Positions 11,651 through 27,709 of a DNA stretch of 64,000 nucleotides are shown here, piece by piece; within the stretch, counting starts at the first letter, position 1, and every line of letters begins with the position of its first letter. Both the position numbers and the translations under genes were made by a program. Below the pieces are notes generated by a model. It was given only the letters and a program-made list of their open reading frames with translations, made no database searches and was not told where the DNA came from. Source of the DNA: Methanolinea mesophila (GTDB lineage Archaea > Halobacteriota > Methanomicrobia > Methanomicrobiales > Methanospirillaceae); contig NZ_JAGGKR010000001.1 of assembly GCF_017873855.1 (NCBI RefSeq), positions 186,001-250,000 of the forward strand, given 5' to 3'.

Positions 11651-12292
11651 ATGGATCCTTCCGTCCGGGAAGACTACCTCGAGTCCCTGTGCAACCTGGA
11701 GAGCGAACGCGGAAGCCCTGCCGCCATCAGGGATCTCGCCGCGTTCCTGGACCGGGATGTCCCGTCCGTGACGAAGGATATTCTCGAGCTCGCCGGCACG
11801 GGGGATCTCCTCGCGGGTGAGGACGGCATGGTGACCCTCACCGTGAAAGGGCGGCAGGAGGGGATGAGGGTGGTAAGAAAACACCGCATCCTGGAATGTT
11901 TCTTCACCGAGATGCTCGGAATGGAACCCGACGCGGCCTCCCGGGACGCCTGCGTCCTCGAGCACGATATCCCCGACGAAGCGGTGCTCAAATTAAAAAA
12001 TCTCATCTCGGGGTGCCCGCCGGGGAACTGCGCTCCCTGCGCCCGGCGGGGGTGGAACCGTGCCCTGCTCCCCACGCTCCTCGACGTAGACGAGGGATCG
12101 GAGGTGATCGTGCGGGACCTGATGCAGAAGGGCAGGCTCCACCGGCTCGCGGACCTGGGGATCCTCCCCGGTGAGCACATCGTGCTCCGGCGGCGGCTCA
12201 GCAACAGGTCCGTGGTGGTGGAGGTGAAGGGCGCCGATATCGCCCTCTCCGCGGAGATCGCCGGTATGGTCCTGGTGGAGAAGTCTCCATGA
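11651..12292 (+). CDS. DtxR-type metalloregulator fused to FeoA domain
   Basis: 213 residues. The N-terminal winged helix (about 1-65) and dimerisation/metal domain (about 66-135, with CVLEHDIPDEA carrying His and Glu ligands) are DtxR/MntR-like. The C-terminal 75 residues (RLADLGILPGE and following) form an SH3-like FeoA domain. A Cys-rich turn (CPPGNCAPC) sits between them. In DtxR proteins this fold senses Fe(II) or Mn(II) and represses iron-uptake genes. Its ATG-TGA overlap with feoB suggests it both regulates the operon and may supply the FeoA partner of FeoB, since no separate feoA is seen. Confidence 0.82.
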   Translation: MDPSVREDYLESLCNLESERGSPAAIRDLAAFLDRDVPSVTKDILELAGTGDLLAGEDGMVTLTVKGRQEGMRVVRKHRILECFFTEMLGMEPDAASRDACVLEHDIPDEAVLKLKNLISGCPPGNCAPCARRGWNRALLPTLLDVDEGSEVIVRDLMQKGRLHRLADLGILPGEHIVLRRRLSNRSVVVEVKGADIALSAEIAGMVLVEKSP

Positions 12293-14157
12293 AGATAGGC
12301 CTCGTCGGCAACCCCAACGTCGGAAAATCGCTCATTTTCCAGCAACTCACCGGTCTCGGCGTCGAGATCAGCAATTATCCGGGCACCACCGTCGATATCA
12401 AATACGGGAGCGTCTGCTACGAGAAGGAACGCCTCCAGGTGGTGGACCTTCCGGGAATCTACTCTCTCGACGGTGATTCGGACGAGGAGCGGATGGTCCG
12501 TGCGTTCCTCGAGTCGGCAGCGGTCGATTGCCTTATCGCGGTGGTGGACGCGACACACCTGGAGAGGAACCTTTACCTGCTCATCCAGGTCGCCGAATAC
12601 GGCATTCCGACGCTTATCGTGCTCAACATGACCGATGAGGCCGAGAAGAAAGGGCTGATAATCGATCCCGTGAAGCTCGGGGCGCTGCTCGGTACCGAGG
12701 TGATCCCCACCGCCGCGATCCAGGGCAAGAACGTGGAGCAGATCATCCCTTCGGCCCTCGCGAAGGCGAAGGTACCGCATATCGAGGTCCATTACGACAC
12801 CCATATCGAGGCCGCGGTGAGGAGCCTGCAGTCGCTCCACGAGATCGACCGGCATGGCGCCCTCATGGCCCTCCAGGGAACGGGGACCGACGAGGCCCTT
12901 CTCGAGTCCGCAGGGGTGCTTTCGACCGAGATAGAGCAGCGGCACCGGATGACGGTCCACCAGATCATCGCCGGGAACCGCCACCACTGTGCGGCGAGCC
13001 TGGTCCGCCAGGTCGAGAAGGAGAAAACCCCGGGGCCCCGGTTCGACCCGGACCGGATCCTCTCCACGACATGGCCCGGACTTCCCGTACTCGCGGGGAT
13101 CCTTATCCTCATCCTTATCACGGTCTTCTTCATCGGGTCGTGGCTGGAGGGGCTGATCGTCGAGGCATTCAATATCTATGCCGTCCAGCCGCTCCTCTCC
13201 CTCGGCCTCCCCCCCCTCGCCCAGGAGCTTGCCCTCTCCTTCATCCTCGCCCTCCAGGCAGGGCTCGGTATCGCGTTCCCCTTCATCTTCACCTTTTACA
13301 TCTTCATCTCCATCCTTGAGGACACAGGATACCTCACCCGAGCGGCCTTCCTCGCCGACCGGGGCATGCACCGGGTGGGTATGCACGGGGTGGGGATCAT
13401 CCCCATGGTGCTCGGGTTCGGGTGCAACGTCCCTGCGATCATGAGCATAAGGCTCCTGGGGAGCAGGAGGGAACGGGTCATCGCCTCGTTCCTGGTCACC
13501 ATGATCCCCTGCTCGGCCAGGACCGTGATCATCGCCGGGATCCTGGCGAGTTTCGTGAGTATCCTCTCGGCACTGAGCGTGTACCTCTTCGTGTTCGTGC
13601 TGATCGTCATCACCGGTTTTTTCCTCTCCCGGATCACCCCGGGGGAGCAGTTCGGGATGATCCTGGAGATGGCTCCCCTGCGGGCCCCGAGGGCGGGACT
13701 GGTCCTGAAAAAGTCGTGGACCAAGATCAAGGAGTTCCTCTTCATCGCCATGCCCCTCCTGCTCGCGGCGAGCCTTGTCCTCGGGCTGCTCCAGTATTAC
13801 GGCGTGTTCGATCTCTTCGAGCAGATCATCGAACCTTTTTCGATGGCGGTGCTCGGGCTCCCCGCGTACGCCGTAACCGCCCTGATATTCGGGATACTCA
13901 GGAAAGAGATGGCCCTCGAGACCCTGGTCATCCTTGCCGGAAACGCAGACCTCTCCGCCGTGCTCACCGCCGGACAACTCTATACCTTCGCGATCGTGAG
14001 CGTGCTCTTCGTACCCTGCATCTCGACCATCGCGGTGCTCTCCCGGGAGGTGGGGGCGAAAATTGCCTTCCTTGTGTCGCTCTATACTCTTATGCTCGGA
14101 ATTTTGATAGGAGCTCTTATAAACCTCTTAATTGTATGTTGTGTGGGAAATGTATAG
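12289..14157 (+). CDS. feoB: Ferrous iron transporter FeoB
   Basis: 622 residues, start overlapping the regulator stop (ATGA). The N-terminal G domain has G1 GNPNVGKS, G3 DLPGIYSL and G4 NMTD, then a helical GDI domain. The membrane part has two gate domains, including GFGCNVPAIMS and MIPCSARTVI, with conserved Cys on the transport path. It imports Fe(II) across the cytoplasmic membrane in a GTP-dependent way. It is shorter than bacterial FeoB (about 750) but usual for archaea. Its 3' end carries a TATA box for the next gene and overlaps that gene's start by 8 bases. Confidence 0.92.
   Translation: MKIGLVGNPNVGKSLIFQQLTGLGVEISNYPGTTVDIKYGSVCYEKERLQVVDLPGIYSLDGDSDEERMVRAFLESAAVDCLIAVVDATHLERNLYLLIQVAEYGIPTLIVLNMTDEAEKKGLIIDPVKLGALLGTEVIPTAAIQGKNVEQIIPSALAKAKVPHIEVHYDTHIEAAVRSLQSLHEIDRHGALMALQGTGTDEALLESAGVLSTEIEQRHRMTVHQIIAGNRHHCAASLVRQVEKEKTPGPRFDPDRILSTTWPGLPVLAGILILILITVFFIGSWLEGLIVEAFNIYAVQPLLSLGLPPLAQELALSFILALQAGLGIAFPFIFTFYIFISILEDTGYLTRAAFLADRGMHRVGMHGVGIIPMVLGFGCNVPAIMSIRLLGSRRERVIASFLVTMIPCSARTVIIAGILASFVSILSALSVYLFVFVLIVITGFFLSRITPGEQFGMILEMAPLRAPRAGLVLKKSWTKIKEFLFIAMPLLLAASLVLGLLQYYGVFDLFEQIIEPFSMAVLGLPAYAVTALIFGILRKEMALETLVILAGNADLSAVLTAGQLYTFAIVSVLFVPCISTIAVLSREVGAKIAFLVSLYTLMLGILIGALINLLIVCCVGNV
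14116..14124 (+). promoter_or_regulatory. TATA box inside feoB 3' end
   Basis: CTTATAAAC lies about 26-33 bases before ATG 14150, the right distance for a nearly leaderless transcript of the RecA-like gene pair. The pair can therefore be expressed apart from feoB. Confidence 0.5.
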
Positions 14158-14854
14158 TTACAAGACCGGGATACGGCCTATAGACGACGCTATCGGAGGC
14201 CTTGAACCCGGGTCCAACATCCTGATCCTCGCACCGCCCATGAGCGGTGCGGAAAGGGTTGGATTTGTGCTAGCAAGACCAAGAAACGGAGAATATACCA
14301 TTATTCTCTCGACAGACCAATCTTCACTCGAACTCACCGAAGATCTTATGGGCCGTACAGGGTCGGACGATCACATCGGGGTGATCGACAGCATCACCAA
14401 GATGTCGACCCCCGATGCGACCGATACCCTGAGGGTCAAATACATCGCCAGCCCGAGCGACCTCACCGGTATCGGGATCAAGTTCTCCCAGCTGGCGGAA
14501 TCGATCTTCAAAGGTGAACTTGACAGGTCGGGGGAGCTGTTCCCTCCCCCGGTGAGGTTTTACACGAATTCGCTCTCCACCCTCCTGATGTACAGGAAAC
14601 TCGAGGTGCTCTACCAGTTCCTCCATGTCCTGAACGCCAAGATCAAAAAGATGGATGCCATCGGGATCTACACGCTCAACAGCGAGTCGTTCGACGAGCG
14701 GACCATCTCACTTATGAAGCAGCTCATGACCCTGGTCATCGAGATAAAAGAGGAGAACGACGGGGGATATCTCAGGATACGGGGAAAACCCGAGATATCC
14801 CCGGAATGGAAGAAGTTCCGTATCGAACATGATGAACTGATGGTGGGACCATGA
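14150..14854 (+). CDS. KaiC/RecA-fold protein without Walker A motif
   Basis: 234 residues. ATG at 14150 overlaps feoB by 8 bases; upstream TTG or GTG codons are less likely given the TATA box. The N-terminal YKTGIRPIDDAIGGLEPGS matches the opening of KaiC/RadA-like archaeal ATPases. Where GxxGxGKT should stand the sequence is APPMSGAER, so the catalytic Lys is missing. The rest keeps the alternating strand-helix pattern of the fold (TIILSTDQS, IGVIDSITK). It is coupled to the next gene by an ATGA overlap. Probably a non-ATPase scaffold or sensor; no specific function can be assigned. Confidence 0.6.
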   Translation: MYSYKTGIRPIDDAIGGLEPGSNILILAPPMSGAERVGFVLARPRNGEYTIILSTDQSSLELTEDLMGRTGSDDHIGVIDSITKMSTPDATDTLRVKYIASPSDLTGIGIKFSQLAESIFKGELDRSGELFPPPVRFYTNSLSTLLMYRKLEVLYQFLHVLNAKIKKMDAIGIYTLNSESFDERTISLMKQLMTLVIEIKEENDGGYLRIRGKPEISPEWKKFRIEHDELMVGP

Positions 14855-16011
14855 TCAGGACTGGAATAACCGGGATCGACGAGATGCTGGGGAGCGGGAT
14901 ACCAAGGGGGAGCCGGGTGCTCTTTTCCCTGGAGCCCGGGGTCGATGCGAGGGTGTTCATGTACAGCACGCTCAATGCCGCCCTCTCCCAGGGACTCCGA
15001 TGCGTGATCGTCAACCCCCTCGCGACGGAAGAGGTCTTTCGGAGCGACCTGCTAGAGGCGAAGGGGATCGACATCGATTCGTTCGGGGATTACGCGGTAA
15101 TCCTCGACTCCAGGGAGCGTGACCGGATAAACAAAATGTGCTCCCGGAGAGAAGATCGCAGGAGAGAGTGGGATTCACTGCTGAAGGCAGTCTGCGAGCG
15201 CCAGAAGACCGAGGTCGTATTCGTGTACTTCGACCTCATGTACGAGGATCTCGGGCTCGAGGCGGCCGTCGACGTCTTCGGGGCCTCGTGCTGCGGAGGA
15301 AAACTGACCCTGGTGATGGAGAACCTGAACCTCGAGGGGCAGCAGCTCGTCTCCAGGTTCTCGGATGATTTCGCGTTCGACCTGATCATCACCCTGAAGT
15401 CCGGATACACCACCATGCCGTTCTTCAACTTTTTCACCCTCGAATACACGTCATGGTCGAAGGTGCCCACCCGTTCGATCCCCTATCTCATCTCGGACGG
15501 GACGATCCGGCTCTATATCCCGAAGATTGTGGTCACCGGCCCCGCGTCGTCGGGGAAGTCCACCTTCGTCTCCAATGCCTCGGACCGGGGCGTCTCCGTC
15601 GACCGTGGAGGCCAGGGCGACCAGACCACGGTGGCGATGGACCTCGGGTGGCTCCACCTCAAGGGGTTCGAGATCACCATCTACGGCACCCCGGGGAAGC
15701 CGAGGTTCGATCCCATCATCCCCCAGCTGGTCCTCCACGCGATGGGGATCGTCCTGGTCATCGATGTCACCCGGAAGGATACCCTTGAACGGGCGAAGGA
15801 GCTGATGCAGCTGGCCCATGCGGAACGGCTCCCCATGGTTGTCGCGGCGAACAAGATCGATCTCCCCCATTCCCTCACCGAGGAAGAGATCAGGTCGATC
15901 CTGGGCCTGCGGGAAGACACCCCGGTGTATTTCATCTCTGCGCTCAGGCGTGCAGAGGTCCGCCACGTGATCGAGTCTATGGTGGACCAGATCACCCGTT
16001 TTCCCTATTGA
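14851..16011 (+). CDS. Walker-less RecA-fold domain fused to Ras-like GTPase
   Basis: 386 residues. Residues 1-220 resemble the preceding protein (TGITGIDEMLGSGIPRGS), again with a degenerate P-loop (EPGVDAR). Residues about 225-386 form an intact small GTPase: G1 GPASSGKST, G3-like IYGTPGKPRF, G4 AANKIDL and G5 ISAL. GTPG in place of DxxG is typical of the COG2229/MglA-like archaeal and bacterial GTPases. The start overlaps the previous stop (ATGA) with GGTGG upstream, so the two proteins are made together and probably interact. A switch in polarity, motility or signalling is possible but not shown. Confidence 0.7.
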   Translation: MIRTGITGIDEMLGSGIPRGSRVLFSLEPGVDARVFMYSTLNAALSQGLRCVIVNPLATEEVFRSDLLEAKGIDIDSFGDYAVILDSRERDRINKMCSRREDRRREWDSLLKAVCERQKTEVVFVYFDLMYEDLGLEAAVDVFGASCCGGKLTLVMENLNLEGQQLVSRFSDDFAFDLIITLKSGYTTMPFFNFFTLEYTSWSKVPTRSIPYLISDGTIRLYIPKIVVTGPASSGKSTFVSNASDRGVSVDRGGQGDQTTVAMDLGWLHLKGFEITIYGTPGKPRFDPIIPQLVLHAMGIVLVIDVTRKDTLERAKELMQLAHAERLPMVVAANKIDLPHSLTEEEIRSILGLREDTPVYFISALRRAEVRHVIESMVDQITRFPY

Positions 16012-16126: not shown

Positions 16127-16876
16127 ATGCTGACATTCGTAGGACTCGGGTTGTTCGATCACCGGGACATCTCCGTGAAGGGGCTGGAATGCATCCGGCA
16201 GGCGGATGCGGTCTTCATCGAGCGTTATACCTCCATGCTCGCGGGGACCACCCTCGAGGAGATGGAACGGTTCTACGGAAAACGCGTGGAACTGCTGGCC
16301 CGAGAAGAGGTGGAGCAGGACCCCGAGCGGCTCCTCGCGTGTGCCGCCGGGCAGGATGTCGTGTTCCTCACCGGAGGGGACCCCATGGTCTCCACCACGC
16401 ACATGGACCTCCGGCTCCGGGCCCACGAGCGGGGTATCCGGACCGCGATCATCCATGGCGCCTCCATCTCGAGCGCGGTGTGCGGGCTGACCGGGCTGCA
16501 GAACTACCGGTTCGGCAAGTCGTGCTCGCTCCCCTTCCCGGCGAAGAACTGGTTCCCCCACACTCCCATCGAGGTGGTGGCAAAGAACCTCTCTCTCGAC
16601 CTCCATACCCTGGTCTACCTGGATATCCAGAAAGACCGTTACATGACGGTCTCCCAGGCGGTCGGACTCATGGAGGAGCTCGCGGAGATCAAGGGGTTCC
16701 CCATCCCGCTCTACGTGGGGGTCGCCCGGGCGGGCTCCGACCACCCGGTGGTAGCGGCCGGGAGCGGGGAGAAGATGCGGAATATCGACCTCGGCCCCCC
16801 GCTCCACATCCTGGTGGTACCGGCCCGGCTCCACGTGGTGGAGCAGGAGTACCTGGAGGCCTTTGCGGGCCTATGA
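16127..16876 (+). CDS. dphB: Diphthine synthase
   Basis: 249 residues from ATG at 16127 ([11 protein letters not shown]). It is a tetrapyrrole-methylase-fold SAM methyltransferase: [11 protein letters not shown] at the start, [12 protein letters not shown] at the cofactor site and [21 protein letters not shown] as the family signature (in two parts). It methylates the modified histidine of elongation factor 2 during diphthamide synthesis, a step shared by archaea and eukaryotes. The stop overlaps the start of the DUF357 gene (ATGA), so the two are co-translated. Confidence 0.92.
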
Positions 16877-17448
16877 CGGTCCCTTCACCCTGCGACGAGC
16901 TCAGAGCCCGGCTTTCGGGAAGCAATGCACTCCACGCACCGGAGGGGAGCATCTTCCACCGGGAAGGAGAAGAGATCCTTGGAATGGCCCGGGCATATTG
17001 CAGGGATGCCGCAACGTTTTCCCGCGATTCCGACCTGGTGAACGAGTTCGCGGCCTGCTGGTACGCGCTCGCCTGGCTTGACTGCGGGGAATGCCTGGGA
17101 ATCGTATCCACCTCCGGAGCCCGCCGGGAGTGGCCGCCGGGTCCTTCGGGGATCGGACCGGAGGAAAAGGAAAAACTCGACGAAAAGACGTTTCGTTACC
17201 AGCGGCTGCTCTCCGGAGCCTGCACCGGCCTGGAACCTGCCGCCGAGCGGGAGACGGTCCCGTGCGAGGCAGCGGACCGGGTCCTGACTGTCGGGCGGGT
17301 ATTCCTCGCATGGGGTGGGGAGTATATCCGGATGGGCCAAATGGACGCCGCCCTCGCGTGCTTCAGTTACGGTCACGGGTGGCTGGACTGCGGGGTCCGG
17401 ACCGGGCTGTTCAGGATTACCGGCGAACGGGACCTCTTCACGGTGTGA
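16873..17448 (+). CDS. DUF357 family protein
   Basis: 191 residues, beginning within the dphB stop (ATGA). The sequence carries two related helical motifs, [20 protein letters not shown] (about 55-75) and [19 protein letters not shown] (near 165-183), the hallmark of the archaeal DUF357 family. Family members are small helical proteins of unknown biochemical role, often next to diphthamide or translation genes. The central Pro/Gly-rich stretch (about 80-95) is probably a loop. Function is unknown; the tie to diphthine synthase is positional. Confidence 0.7.
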
Positions 17449-24698: not shown

Positions 24699-25892
24699 CT
24701 ATACCCGTTTCTTTTCGTCGATACAGGCATTAATGGCGTCTTCCATGAAGGACAGCGCCCCTTCGGTCCCCGCAAGGGGAGTGGCCCTGAGCCTGACCCT
24801 GCCCCGGAGCGGAGGGGTTATCCCTACGAACGGGGTGCCCGGCATGAGCGACTGTTCGAACGAAGACCCTGCGATAAGGTCGGGAGGGTCCGCCCGGAGG
24901 ATCTCCTCCTCGACCCCCAGATCCAGGACCTGCCGGATCCCGCGGTCACCGGTGGTTGAACCGGGCGGACTTCCTGGCGGCGTTCCGGGAGGTTTCCCGG
25001 TCTGAGTCAATGCCCCGTTTCCAGGCGGGTTCCGGGAGAAGATCCCGGTGATCCCGGCGTCGAGGTACGTTGAGAGCATATCCGCGGCGAATCCCGCATA
25101 GCCCGCCTGGGCAAATATCGCGACGGAGGGAGGGTCGTACCGGCGGAGGTACTTGTCGCACGCCCGGACCACCCGTTCCTCGGCCTCCCGGAGTTCTTCC
25201 TCGAGGACACCGGTATCGGCGTCAGGGAACCGGAGGGAGAGCCCGGGAAGGCTCCCCCGTATCGCGGGGAACCCAAGCATCGACCCGATCTCCTCGCCGA
25301 ACCGTCCGGCGATGTCGGGATTCGCGGAGAGCGTTGCCGGGGGAAGGCGGGAGAGGGAGGAGAACCTGTCCCGGCAGAGCACCGCTCCCACCCGGATCCC
25401 TGCGAGGGAACAGAGCCTCCTGATCTCAAGTTCATTCCCCCTTCCGAAAGGATCCGCGGCGCTGATCCCTGCGAGGGTTACCCCGGAGTGCTCCGGGTCG
25501 CTCCGGAGGGGCAGTGCCTCGAGTGCCGCGGAGAAGCCCTGTTCGAACTCCCCCATGAACCCCGGGCTGTCCACCACCAGGATATCGTCCCTCCCGGTGA
25601 TGCGGTGGATATCGTCTCCGGTCAGGGCGGTCGCGCAGGTGGTCACCACCGCGAGCCGGTCGAACCGGGGAAGCAGCCGCTCCACCGTTTCCCTGACCCG
25701 TTCCTCGGCCCCGAAGACTACGTCCTCCTCCACGAGAAAGGTGGAGGAGAGGTCGGTCCGGAGCACGGTCGCCGGGTAGAAGTAACACCCGCTCGACCCG
25801 TGGATGATCACCCCGAGCCCCGAGAACCCGGAGAGGCACGCGACCGCACCCGCCATAGCGCAGGGCCAGAGCGGGTTCTCCCCTTCATGCAC
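24699..25892 (-). CDS. Nitrogenase component-1-like protein (second subunit)
   Basis: 397 residues. The N-terminal part has cysteines 11, 36 and 86 spaced like the P-cluster or [4Fe-4S] ligands of component-1 proteins (WPCAMAG, HGSSGCYFYP, VVTTCATALTGDD). It lacks the Cys/His pair that holds FeMo-cofactor in NifD. A Pro/Gly-rich insert of about 30 residues (about 288-318) is unusual for the family. It overlaps the upstream component-1 gene by 8 bases, so the two are probably a heteromer fed by the Fe protein encoded first. It is much shorter than NifK. The substrate is unknown. Confidence 0.7.
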   Translation of the reverse strand: MHEGENPLWPCAMAGAVACLSGFSGLGVIIHGSSGCYFYPATVLRTDLSSTFLVEEDVVFGAEERVRETVERLLPRFDRLAVVTTCATALTGDDIHRITGRDDILVVDSPGFMGEFEQGFSAALEALPLRSDPEHSGVTLAGISAADPFGRGNELEIRRLCSLAGIRVGAVLCRDRFSSLSRLPPATLSANPDIAGRFGEEIGSMLGFPAIRGSLPGLSLRFPDADTGVLEEELREAEERVVRACDKYLRRYDPPSVAIFAQAGYAGFAADMLSTYLDAGITGIFSRNPPGNGALTQTGKPPGTPPGSPPGSTTGDRGIRQVLDLGVEEEILRADPPDLIAGSSFEQSLMPGTPFVGITPPLRGRVRLRATPLAGTEGALSFMEDAINACIDEKKRV

Positions 25893-26910
25893 GGGTCCTC
25901 GCCCTCCACCGGTGGAGCACCCGTCGGACCCCGGAAGTGCCCGCAGGGAACGGGGACGGGAGGGGGAGGGAGGCTCCCCGCTCGTCGACCGAGAGGTCGA
26001 ACAGTTCCGCGAGCTCGCGGACGGCCTCCTGCTCTCCGGGATCCGTCACTCCCTCGAGCCTCACCGACCTGCCTCTGATGTCCCCGAACTCCTCGACGAG
26101 AGCCCGCTGGCGTCTTTTTTCCTTCTCCAACGCCGGGTCTGCCGTTTTCCCCTCTGACTCCGCAACCTGACTTAAAAAGACGAGCGTCCCTTCGAGACCA
26201 AGGGGAAATGAAGAGATAAACGGGGTCCCGAACCGGACCTCAAGGGCCTCCCCGACGGGGGTGAGCCCCGTCTCCCGGAGGATGTTTAATGACCCCCTCC
26301 CGAGGAGCCCGACCTCCCGGGAATCGATCTCCCGGACGAACCGGAGCCGGACCTCCACCCCGAGGAGCGAGAGCAGCCTGACAATCTCGGCATAGTTCTG
26401 GTCCACCTCGTACTCCAGGTTCTTCTCCCCCACAAGGGTGATTCCCCCGGGTCCTTCCCGGGCCGGCCGGCCATGGTCTTCCATGGTCGCGAGGGCGATC
26501 AGGGCATTCCTCTCCCCGTCGTGGAACCCCCCGCCGAGGAACCCGGAGGTGGGGATGTGGACCACCGGGACGGGCCGGTCCTCCCTGCAGACCATGGCGG
26601 TGTCGTCCCCGATGGTATCGGCGACACAGCTGGTGAGCACGAAGATGCACGCCGGGTCCATCTGCACGGCCCGGTGAAGCGCCCGCTCGAGGGCTTCTTC
26701 CCCCCCGAAGACCACGTCCTTCTCGGTGACCATGGACGAGAGAATCCGGGGCGGAGGTCTTCCCCGGTCCACGGCGACCGTATGGAAGAGCGAAAAATTG
26801 TGGTGGGCGCAGCCCCGGGGCCCGTGAATTATGCTGACCGCGTCACGGACCGCCGTGGTGATCGAGAGGGCCCCGGTGAGGGTGCATCCTTCAGATCGCG
26901 ATGAACTCAT
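25885..26910 (-). CDS. Nitrogenase component-1-like protein (first subunit)
   Basis: 341 residues from ATG at 26910, which lies 20 bases inside the Fe protein gene; a longer reading to 26988 gives only an Arg/Ser-rich run antisense in character. Cysteines 9, 34 and 95 ([31 protein letters not shown]) are spaced like the three N-terminal NifD cluster ligands. No Cys or His matching the FeMo-cofactor ligands is seen, and the length is two-thirds of NifD. This fits the nitrogenase-like groups (relatives of CfbD, BchN or methylthio-alkane reductase) rather than true nitrogenase. Confidence 0.7.
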
Positions 26911-27709
26911 ATGCGAGGGATTCCAGTTCCTCGATCTCGAGCGGCTCGGGGACGTCGAGCCGGGTGTTCTCCAGGACTTTTCCTGCAAGGTCCCGGTAGG
27001 CGCCCGCCTGCGAGGATTCGGGGGCGTATTCGATCACGGTCATCTTGTTCAGTTCCGCGAGCTGGACCACCGGGTCCCGGGGGATGAACTGTACCATGGT
27101 GCTCCCGATCTGCTCGGCGAAGCGGGCCACGAGCTCGTCCTCCCGGGGAAGGTTCTTCGCGTTGCAGATCACGCCCGCGAGGCGCGTCTTGCTCTTCGCA
27201 CGCGACGAGAGCCGTTTTATGGCCTTGCAGATGTTGTTCGCCGCGTAGAGGGACATCAGCTCCCCCGAAGTGACCAGGTAGACCTCCTCGGCATAGCCCT
27301 CCCGCATGGGCATGGCGAATCCCCCGCACACCACGTCCCCGAGCACGTCGTACACCACCACGTCCCCGTGGAGCGCCCCGAGCCGCTCCAGGATCTGGAA
27401 CGTGGCGATGATCCCCCTCCCGGCACACCCGACGCCGGGTTCGGGCCCGCCCGCTTCCACGCAACGGACGCCCCGGTAGCCCTCGAAGACCACGTCGTCC
27501 AGGGTGAGGGAGCGGTCGCCCCGTTCCCTGACCAGGTCCATCACGGTAGGGATCAGCCGGCCCCTCATCAGCATCCGGGTGCTGTCACGTTTCGGGTCGC
27601 ACCCGATCTGCAGGATATCCAGGCCCCGGTCCGAGAGCGCGGCTGAAAGATTTGCAGATGTCGTCGATTTTCCAATCCCTCCCTTCCCGTAGAGGGCTAT
27701 CTGCTTCAT
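26891..27709 (-). CDS. NifH-like ATP-dependent reductase (Fe protein)
   Basis: 272 residues, full length. P-loop GKGGIGKST, switch-like DPKRDSTR, cluster Cys in PGVGCAGRG and [14 protein letters not shown], and the Arg next to the first Cys are all present. It donates electrons with ATP hydrolysis to the component-1-like proteins that follow. The F430 operon at 42-47 kb has CfbD but no CfbC, so this protein could also be CfbC or serve both systems. The promoter TTTATTAG lies about 25 bases upstream of the start. Confidence 0.8.

Follow-up and report, generated by a model that had tools for sequence, protein, structure and literature searches.

The gene pair P1-P2 of the archaeon Methanolinea mesophila (Methanomicrobiales, hereafter the order; phylum Halobacteriota) lies in a 64,000-nucleotide stretch of contig NZ_JAGGKR010000001.1 (positions 186,001 to 250,000), called the window below. 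Its closest described counterpart is the MglA-MglB system, in particular the archaeal 'Group 4' MglA proteins (Wuichet and Sogaard-Andersen, 2014, PMC4316618). MglA proteins of Groups 2-5 have GTPGQ in the G3 motif, without the aspartate. P2 and its relatives share this type of G3 and the lack of a G1-G2 insert, and they also share the genetic coupling to a Roadblock/LC7 gene, here only outside the order. In contrast to MglA, the GTPase of P2 is fused behind a KaiC-like domain, a KaiC-like partner gene (P1) accompanies it, and a linked Roadblock gene is missing in the order. The 2014 survey treated MglA as a single-domain protein of 150-240 amino acids (aa) and excluded longer sequences, whereas P2 is a 386-aa fusion; for the archaeal Group 4 genes, the survey reports that no conserved proteins lie nearby.

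A second counterpart is formed by KaiC-like ATPases and inactivated KaiC ('iKaiC', a term used in PMC5847659), described as archaeal signalling hubs. In iKaiC, too, an inactivated KaiC-fold domain is joined to a signalling domain, but the partner in the present case is a Ras-like GTPase with Roadblock. The actinobacterial conservon CvnA-D (PMC13343842) likewise has an MglA-type GTPase and a Roadblock protein in one operon, where a histidine-kinase-like protein takes the place of the KaiC-like ones. Small GTPases, Roadblock and TRAPPC3/V4R proteins of Asgard archaea (PMC10933270) resemble the combination of GTPase, Roadblock and, in Archaeoglobaceae-type loci, V4R; however, the genes described here form one operon with KaiC-like proteins, whereas in MK-D1, according to that paper, the GTPase genes do not as a rule share an operon with Roadblock or TRAPPC3 genes. 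ArlH/FlaH, finally, is a single-domain KaiC-like protein that P1 matches weakly, but the scores with the ArlH/FlaH model are 22.0 (P1) and 14.6 bits against a cut-off of 215, and the Walker A motif of P1 is lost. Circadian KaiC consists of two tandem KaiC domains and has KaiB and KaiA as partners; P1 and P2 contain one KaiC-like domain each (KaiA and KaiB were not searched for).

Thus, inactivated KaiC domains in archaeal signalling (PMC5847659) and MglA-Roadblock pairs are both known, and a module combining the two looks real and uncharacterised. No account of a KaiC-GTPase-Roadblock module was found in the literature searched, which did not cover the mBio 2017 KaiC review, and a prior mention is possible. 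The results described below make it, in our judgement, probable that P1-P2 represents, in Methanomicrobiales, an ancient GTP switch of archaea with KaiC-like, GTPase and Roadblock components, in which KaiC-fold domains place and gate the GTPase. Two signalling ideas that have been treated apart, KaiC-type hubs and Ras/Roadblock switches, would then be joined in one conserved operon from Archaeoglobaceae to DPANN.

Predicted folds and motifs of P1 and P2

A sequence-only reading of the window had described P1 and P2 as coupled genes for two dead KaiC/RecA-fold proteins, one of them fused to a COG2229/MglA-type GTPase. Both the coordinates of the two coupled open reading frames and the domain assignment proved right. 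P1 scores 86.2 bits with Pfam DUF7504 (cut-off 27). Pfam KaiC (PF06745) does not reach P1 of the window, but two outside-order relatives score above its cut-off, at 38.0 and 41.5 bits; residues 1-222 of P2 score 23.6 bits, under the cut-off of 26.6, and those of the relative in locus L089 67.6 bits. The KaiC fold was settled on predicted structures. The best structural match of the P1 model (pLDDT 89.7) is PH0284 (Z 23.1, rmsd 2.4, 212 aligned residues), with Z 21.7 to KaiC itself, and the N-terminal domain of the P2 model (pLDDT 87.0) matches KaiC best (Z 23.8, rmsd 2.4, 207 aligned residues). On these predicted models both domains have the KaiC/RecA fold, so that the assignment as RecA-like survived the check that could have overturned it.

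The P-loop motifs were read exactly in the earlier work, and the loss of the lysine is not confined to the window. For P1 it is absent from all 32 rows of the Methanomicrobiales alignment (A2, from which the fragment L049 and L048, with an in-frame stop in P1, were left out), which read APPMSGAE and similar. For P2 it is absent from all 24 rows of the order (A1) and all 29 rows of the wider alignment A8, which omits L148 (contig end) and L153 (near copy). The Walker A motif of active KaiC-like ATPases, GxxxxGK[ST], is therefore found in neither P1 nor P2 of the order. Outside the order, the P1 lysine is present in 19 of 19 rows of alignment A9, mostly as GPPMSGK[ED] and as GKS in Archaeoglobaceae-type loci. 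Five P1 rows were left out of A9; three of them have the lysine (L142, L150, L153), L141 lacks GK and L143 is a fragment. The exceptions outside the order are L141, L088 and L090. In the last two, the P1 slot holds a shorter protein without a P-loop (L088:7151-7762, L090:812-1438), which is preceded by the Roadblock gene. The earlier view of dead ATPase scaffolds thus applies to Methanomicrobiales P1, which is dead throughout, but it fails as a general rule.

The GTPase domain shows a different pattern. G1 retains GK[ST] in 24/24 rows of A1, although both KaiC-like P-loops are dead, and in 29/29 rows of A8. G3 contains GTPG in 23 of the 24 A1 rows (GIPG in the other) and in all 29 A8 rows; G4 conforms to NKxD in 18 of the 24 and in all 29 wide rows, the six deviants of the order being NKRE (two copies), NRKH, TKSD, NMKD and NVKD. 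Alignment A4 omits seven rows of the order whose G domains are damaged or odd. The window copy reads GTPGK at G3 and agrees with MglA Groups 2-5 on GTPG, but not with the Rup family, which is defined by a canonical Asp in G3 (PMC4316618). Since the missing aspartate of DxxG is normal for the MglA-type family (PMC4316618), the GTPase, correctly recognised before as a small GTPase with GTPG, is intact in the sense of this family. Within the order it is more conserved than the KaiC-like domain (mean column identity 0.497 versus 0.395). In an unrooted tree of 61 GTPase domains, built with a quick method after 24 of 85 rows had been left out as near copies, all 30 fusion rows lie on one side of a branch with an SH-aLRT support of 100, and 7 archaeal stand-alone and 24 bacterial domains lie on the other.

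Distribution of the fusion and its Roadblock partner

The full-length fusion was found in 25 of the 61 order genomes searched, including that of the window, always with an open frame, and in 52 of 294 phylum genomes, 24 within Methanomicrobiales and 28 outside. An isolated assembly artefact, which would have undermined the original description, is thereby ruled out. P1 occurs in 34 of the 61 order genomes at E < 1e-50; these include all 25 genomes with the fusion, and the other nine have P1 without it. In a profile search with the N-terminal domain of P2, the 24 strong matches were confined to the order, and weak ones with frames of about 390 aa appeared elsewhere. Of 20 weak-match loci retrieved, 19 have the same architecture, a pseudo-KaiC domain followed by a GTPase with GTPGQ (the exception is L097). 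A scan of named genomes yielded 80 loci, 30 of which (L126-L155) were treated as fusion loci, three of them from Methanomicrobiales. The others come from Methanoperedens, Methanosarcinaceae and other metagenome-assembled genomes (MAGs) of Methanosarcinales, ANME-2, Archaeoglobaceae and Altiarchaeota, from the DPANN groups Micrarchaeota, Aenigmatarchaeota, Parvarchaeota and Nanoarchaeota, from one euryarchaeal MAG and from unnamed archaea; L181 is a further Parvarchaeota copy. The KaiC-like partner adjoins the fusion in 27 of the 30 loci, upstream in 25, downstream in L142 and after the Roadblock gene in L149. Candidate fusions in bacteria were rejected, because the similarity of the bacterial loci to the query is confined to the GTPase and starts at about residue 198. 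Among plasmids, 97 records match the query, none of them over more than 80% of its length.

Outside the order, the fusion has a Roadblock/LC7 gene as its immediate neighbour in 26 of the 27 named loci, and the remaining locus (L148) is cut by a contig end; in the three named Methanomicrobiales loci it has none. The Pfam Roadblock family was confirmed in all five outside-order proteins tested. When a close, or cognate, Roadblock was defined by a threshold of our choice (E of 1e-35 or better), it was present in 27 of the 294 phylum genomes, namely in 26 of the 28 fusion genomes from outside the order, in none of the 24 fusion genomes of the order, and in one genome without fusion. These are plain counts of genomes that are related to each other, and the alignments A5-A7 hold part of the loci. 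In the other two outside-order genomes with the fusion, the Roadblock is adjacent but divergent (L206) or is itself fused (L207). This triple fusion, in a genome of family f14 that is 99% complete, joins KaiC-like domain, GTPase and Roadblock in one protein of 546 aa. Together, gene order and fusion make a partnership of GTPase and Roadblock well supported at the level of sequence, and they lend strong support to the signalling role that had been suggested for P1-P2.

Several loci depart from the arrangement with one Roadblock gene: two or three follow the fusion at L145:2639-3758, L147:6121-6921 and L096:2367-4424. Genome G106 (fusion locus L098) has twelve cognate-Roadblock matches at E 1e-35 or better in 1.4 Mb, far more than the other genomes listed. 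Archaeoglobaceae-type loci have a V4R gene behind the Roadblock gene, for example at L099:3397-3996 (- strand). Among eight proteins tested against the Pfam V4R cut-off, seven pass clearly (L095 and L099-L104), and that of L096 passes by 0.3 bits. The V4R fold is related to TRAPPC3 (PMC10933270). Hence GTPase, Roadblock and V4R, folds of eukaryotic Rab/Rag control, occur together in non-Asgard archaea.

The window genome has Roadblock genes of its own, none of them adjacent to P1-P2. The one at L109 was considered as the missing partner; it is the best match to A7 in its genome (76.8 bits), but equal or better matches occur in genomes that lack P2 (among them G031 and G005), and it was not retained. 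Two others, at L113, precede genes read by eye as type IV pilus (T4P) secretion genes. This location bears on the possibility that the pair is a switch for cell polarity or for positioning of T4P or the archaellum, by analogy with Myxococcus MglA-MglB, to which we give a minor but real chance. It would fit the kind of GTPase (GTPGQ in G3, PMC4316618), the shared Roadblock fold of the regulator and the frequent presence of arCOG02603 Roadblock proteins in archaeal T4P loci (PMC4858521). However, among the neighbours listed no T4P or archaellum gene was recognised (by eye and with a small set of labels, not by a scan of all families), and the T4P-linked Roadblock of the window genome is not of the cognate kind, scoring 60 bits compared with 155-211 bits for the linked ones of Halobacteriota-type loci.

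The proposed KaiC-GTPase-Roadblock switch

Our reading of P1-P2 as one form of an archaeal GTP switch starts from the predicted folds, the motif losses, the operon structure, the conservation of partners and the triple fusion. In P2, a KaiC-fold pseudo-ATPase domain would anchor an MglA-type GTPase, and P1 would be the KaiC-fold partner of P2. The KaiC-like domains of the two proteins, whose contact is suggested by gene coupling, may assemble into a heteromer via the KaiC/RecA subunit interface and in this way position and gate the GTPase. In most lineages an MglB-like Roadblock/LC7 protein would regulate the GTPase, possibly as GTPase-activating protein or guanine nucleotide exchange factor, and we infer a cycle of GTP binding and hydrolysis that has a signalling output. 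A possible contribution of P1 outside the order is the sensing of ATP. The Methanomicrobiales pair would use its two KaiC-like parts purely as scaffold, and control of the GTPase would have to come from P1, from an unlinked Roadblock or from a slow hydrolysis intrinsic to the GTPase. By parsimony, with the events not dated on a species tree, the pair of this order would be a stripped form: the linked Roadblock would have disappeared, P1 would have lost its lysine, and the dph5 neighbourhood described below would be an acquisition. It can be seen as a natural deletion experiment that tells which parts are dispensable while the GTPase stays, and the module offers a defined, clonable set of proteins for testing the function of KaiC-like proteins in archaea.

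Several observations weigh against this proposal. No fusion genome of the order has a close Roadblock, as shown above, and a Roadblock of some kind reaches E 1e-6 or better in 59 of the 61 order genomes, so that what was lost is the close, linked one; a Roadblock acting from elsewhere is possible in these genomes. P1 persists without P2 beside dph5 in nine Methanomicrobiales genomes (L040-L048) and must therefore have a role apart from the GTPase. In addition, five of the 24 order copies are altered at the N, K or D of G4 (all deviants listed above except TKSD).

More speculative, and in our view rather less likely than the proposal itself, is an archaea-wide module in which a machine of KaiC-fold ATPase and pseudo-ATPase carries a Ras-like GTPase that is read by Roadblock (and V4R), the ATP state gating the GTP switch. 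The Methanomicrobiales would have given up the Roadblock as well as the ATP input, and the dead P1 would regulate the GTPase.

Operon context and remaining alternatives

The features of the locus and of the Roadblock loci discussed are collected in Table 1.

Table 1. Positions of the genes, domains and motifs discussed (window coordinates unless a locus is given)
Feature	Position	Strand	Remarks
P1	14150..14854	+	ATG 14150, stop 14854; 234 aa; single-domain KaiC-like, without P-loop Lys
Dead P-loop of P1, APPMSGAER	14231..14257	+	P1 residues 28-36; GPPMSGKE in many outside-order relatives
P2	14851..16011	+	ATG 14851; KaiC-like domain fused to Ras-like GTPase
KaiC-like pseudo-ATPase domain	14851..15516	+	P2 residues 1-222; predicted fold
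Dead P-loop of P2, EPGVDAR	14932..14952	+	P2 residues 28-34
MglA/COG2229-type small GTPase	15517..16011	+	P2 residues 223-386; Ras PF00071 39.9 bits, small_GTP TIGR00231 43.8 bits
G1 motif GPASSGKST	15538..15564	+	
G3 motif YGTPG	15682..15696	+	
G4 motif NKID	15850..15861	+	
feoB	12289..14157	+	TIGR00437 429 bits; upstream of P1, stop overlaps P1 start
TATA-like hexamer TTATAA	14117..14122	+	33 bases 5' of P1 start, within feoB 3' end
dph5, diphthine synthase	16127..16876	+	TIGR00522 296 bits; same operon as P1-P2
DUF357 protein gene	16873..17448	+	PF04010 111.5 bits; same operon; conserved downstream like dph5
Roadblock of the window genome	L109:1483-1842	+	PF03259 35 bits; directly before receiver-like gene (response regulator); unlinked to P1-P2
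Two further Roadblocks of the window genome	L113:8327-9362	+	
Triple fusion KaiC-GTPase-Roadblock	L207:3752-5392	-	PF06745 53.2 bits, Robl_LC7 48.4 bits

P1 and P2 overlap by four bases in the window (ATGA) and by one or four bases in all 23 Methanomicrobiales loci with the pair. Directly downstream, dph5 follows in 23/23 loci with P1-P2 and in 9/9 loci with P1 only (scored by tblastn in L048, L054 and L071), and it follows the pair in none of 46 loci outside the order. Roadblock, among the neighbours that the sequence-only reading had named as telling, is found outside the order, but the constant neighbours of the window genes are dph5 and the DUF357 gene and not chemotaxis or archaellum genes.

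This neighbourhood raises the question of a translation-linked device, in which the Methanomicrobiales P1-P2 would serve the diphthamide/EF-2 branch together with Dph5 and the DUF357 protein, for example in methyltransferase regulation or in sensing of EF-2 status. The joint presence of dph5 and DUF357 downstream in every P1-P2 and P1-only locus of the order is in line with it, as is the fact that P1 stays beside dph5 after the loss of P2. However, dph5 occupies this place in none of the outside-order loci, although the pair is conserved there, and P1 has a TATA-like element of its own, so that the adjacency may be mere housekeeping clustering. We therefore regard this device as unlikely.

Still less probable is a decaying relic, in which the loss of the Roadblock and of both P-loops in the order would have left the remainder to drift. 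Such decay could account for the missing close Roadblock, the P1 lysine lost in every row, the nine genomes in which P2 is missing beside P1, the damaged G4 of some copies and the in-frame stop in P1 of genome G060. But all 25 fusion frames are open, G1 and G3 are maintained nearly throughout, the overlap with P1 is retained in every locus and the promoter element is conserved. That the RecA fold acts on DNA without a need for nucleotide, RadA/RecA-like and with the GTPase as a passenger, appears very improbable. Both domains do have the RecA/KaiC fold, and RecA fusion constructs head the PDB list of the P1 profile via many weak repeats, but KaiC and KaiC-like proteins of archaea provide the best structural and the most numerous matches, and the Roadblock partner points to GTPase regulation.

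A promoter of the pair inside feoB had been proposed before and gained comparative support. Of 33 loci, 21 have a TATA-like hexamer between -45 and -23 of P1, compared with 0-4 of 33 in ten control windows further upstream. Where feoB lies upstream, coding constraint could explain the hexamer, but it is also present in 8 of 11 loci in which the upstream gene is not feoB. Thus, TTATAA is likely, judging from this conservation, to be the promoter of the P1-P2-dph5-DUF357 operon.

FeoB is a weak candidate for a functional partner: feoB lies upstream on the same strand in 16/23 P1-P2 loci and 5/9 P1-only loci of the order and in 0/46 elsewhere, and is thus a common, not a fixed, neighbour of P1 in Methanomicrobiales. 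Farther downstream, the window contains genes for a nitrogenase component 1-like protein and a NifH-like protein at 24699-25892 and 26891-27709 (both on the - strand), which may belong to the cofactor F430 pathway and not to nitrogen fixation.

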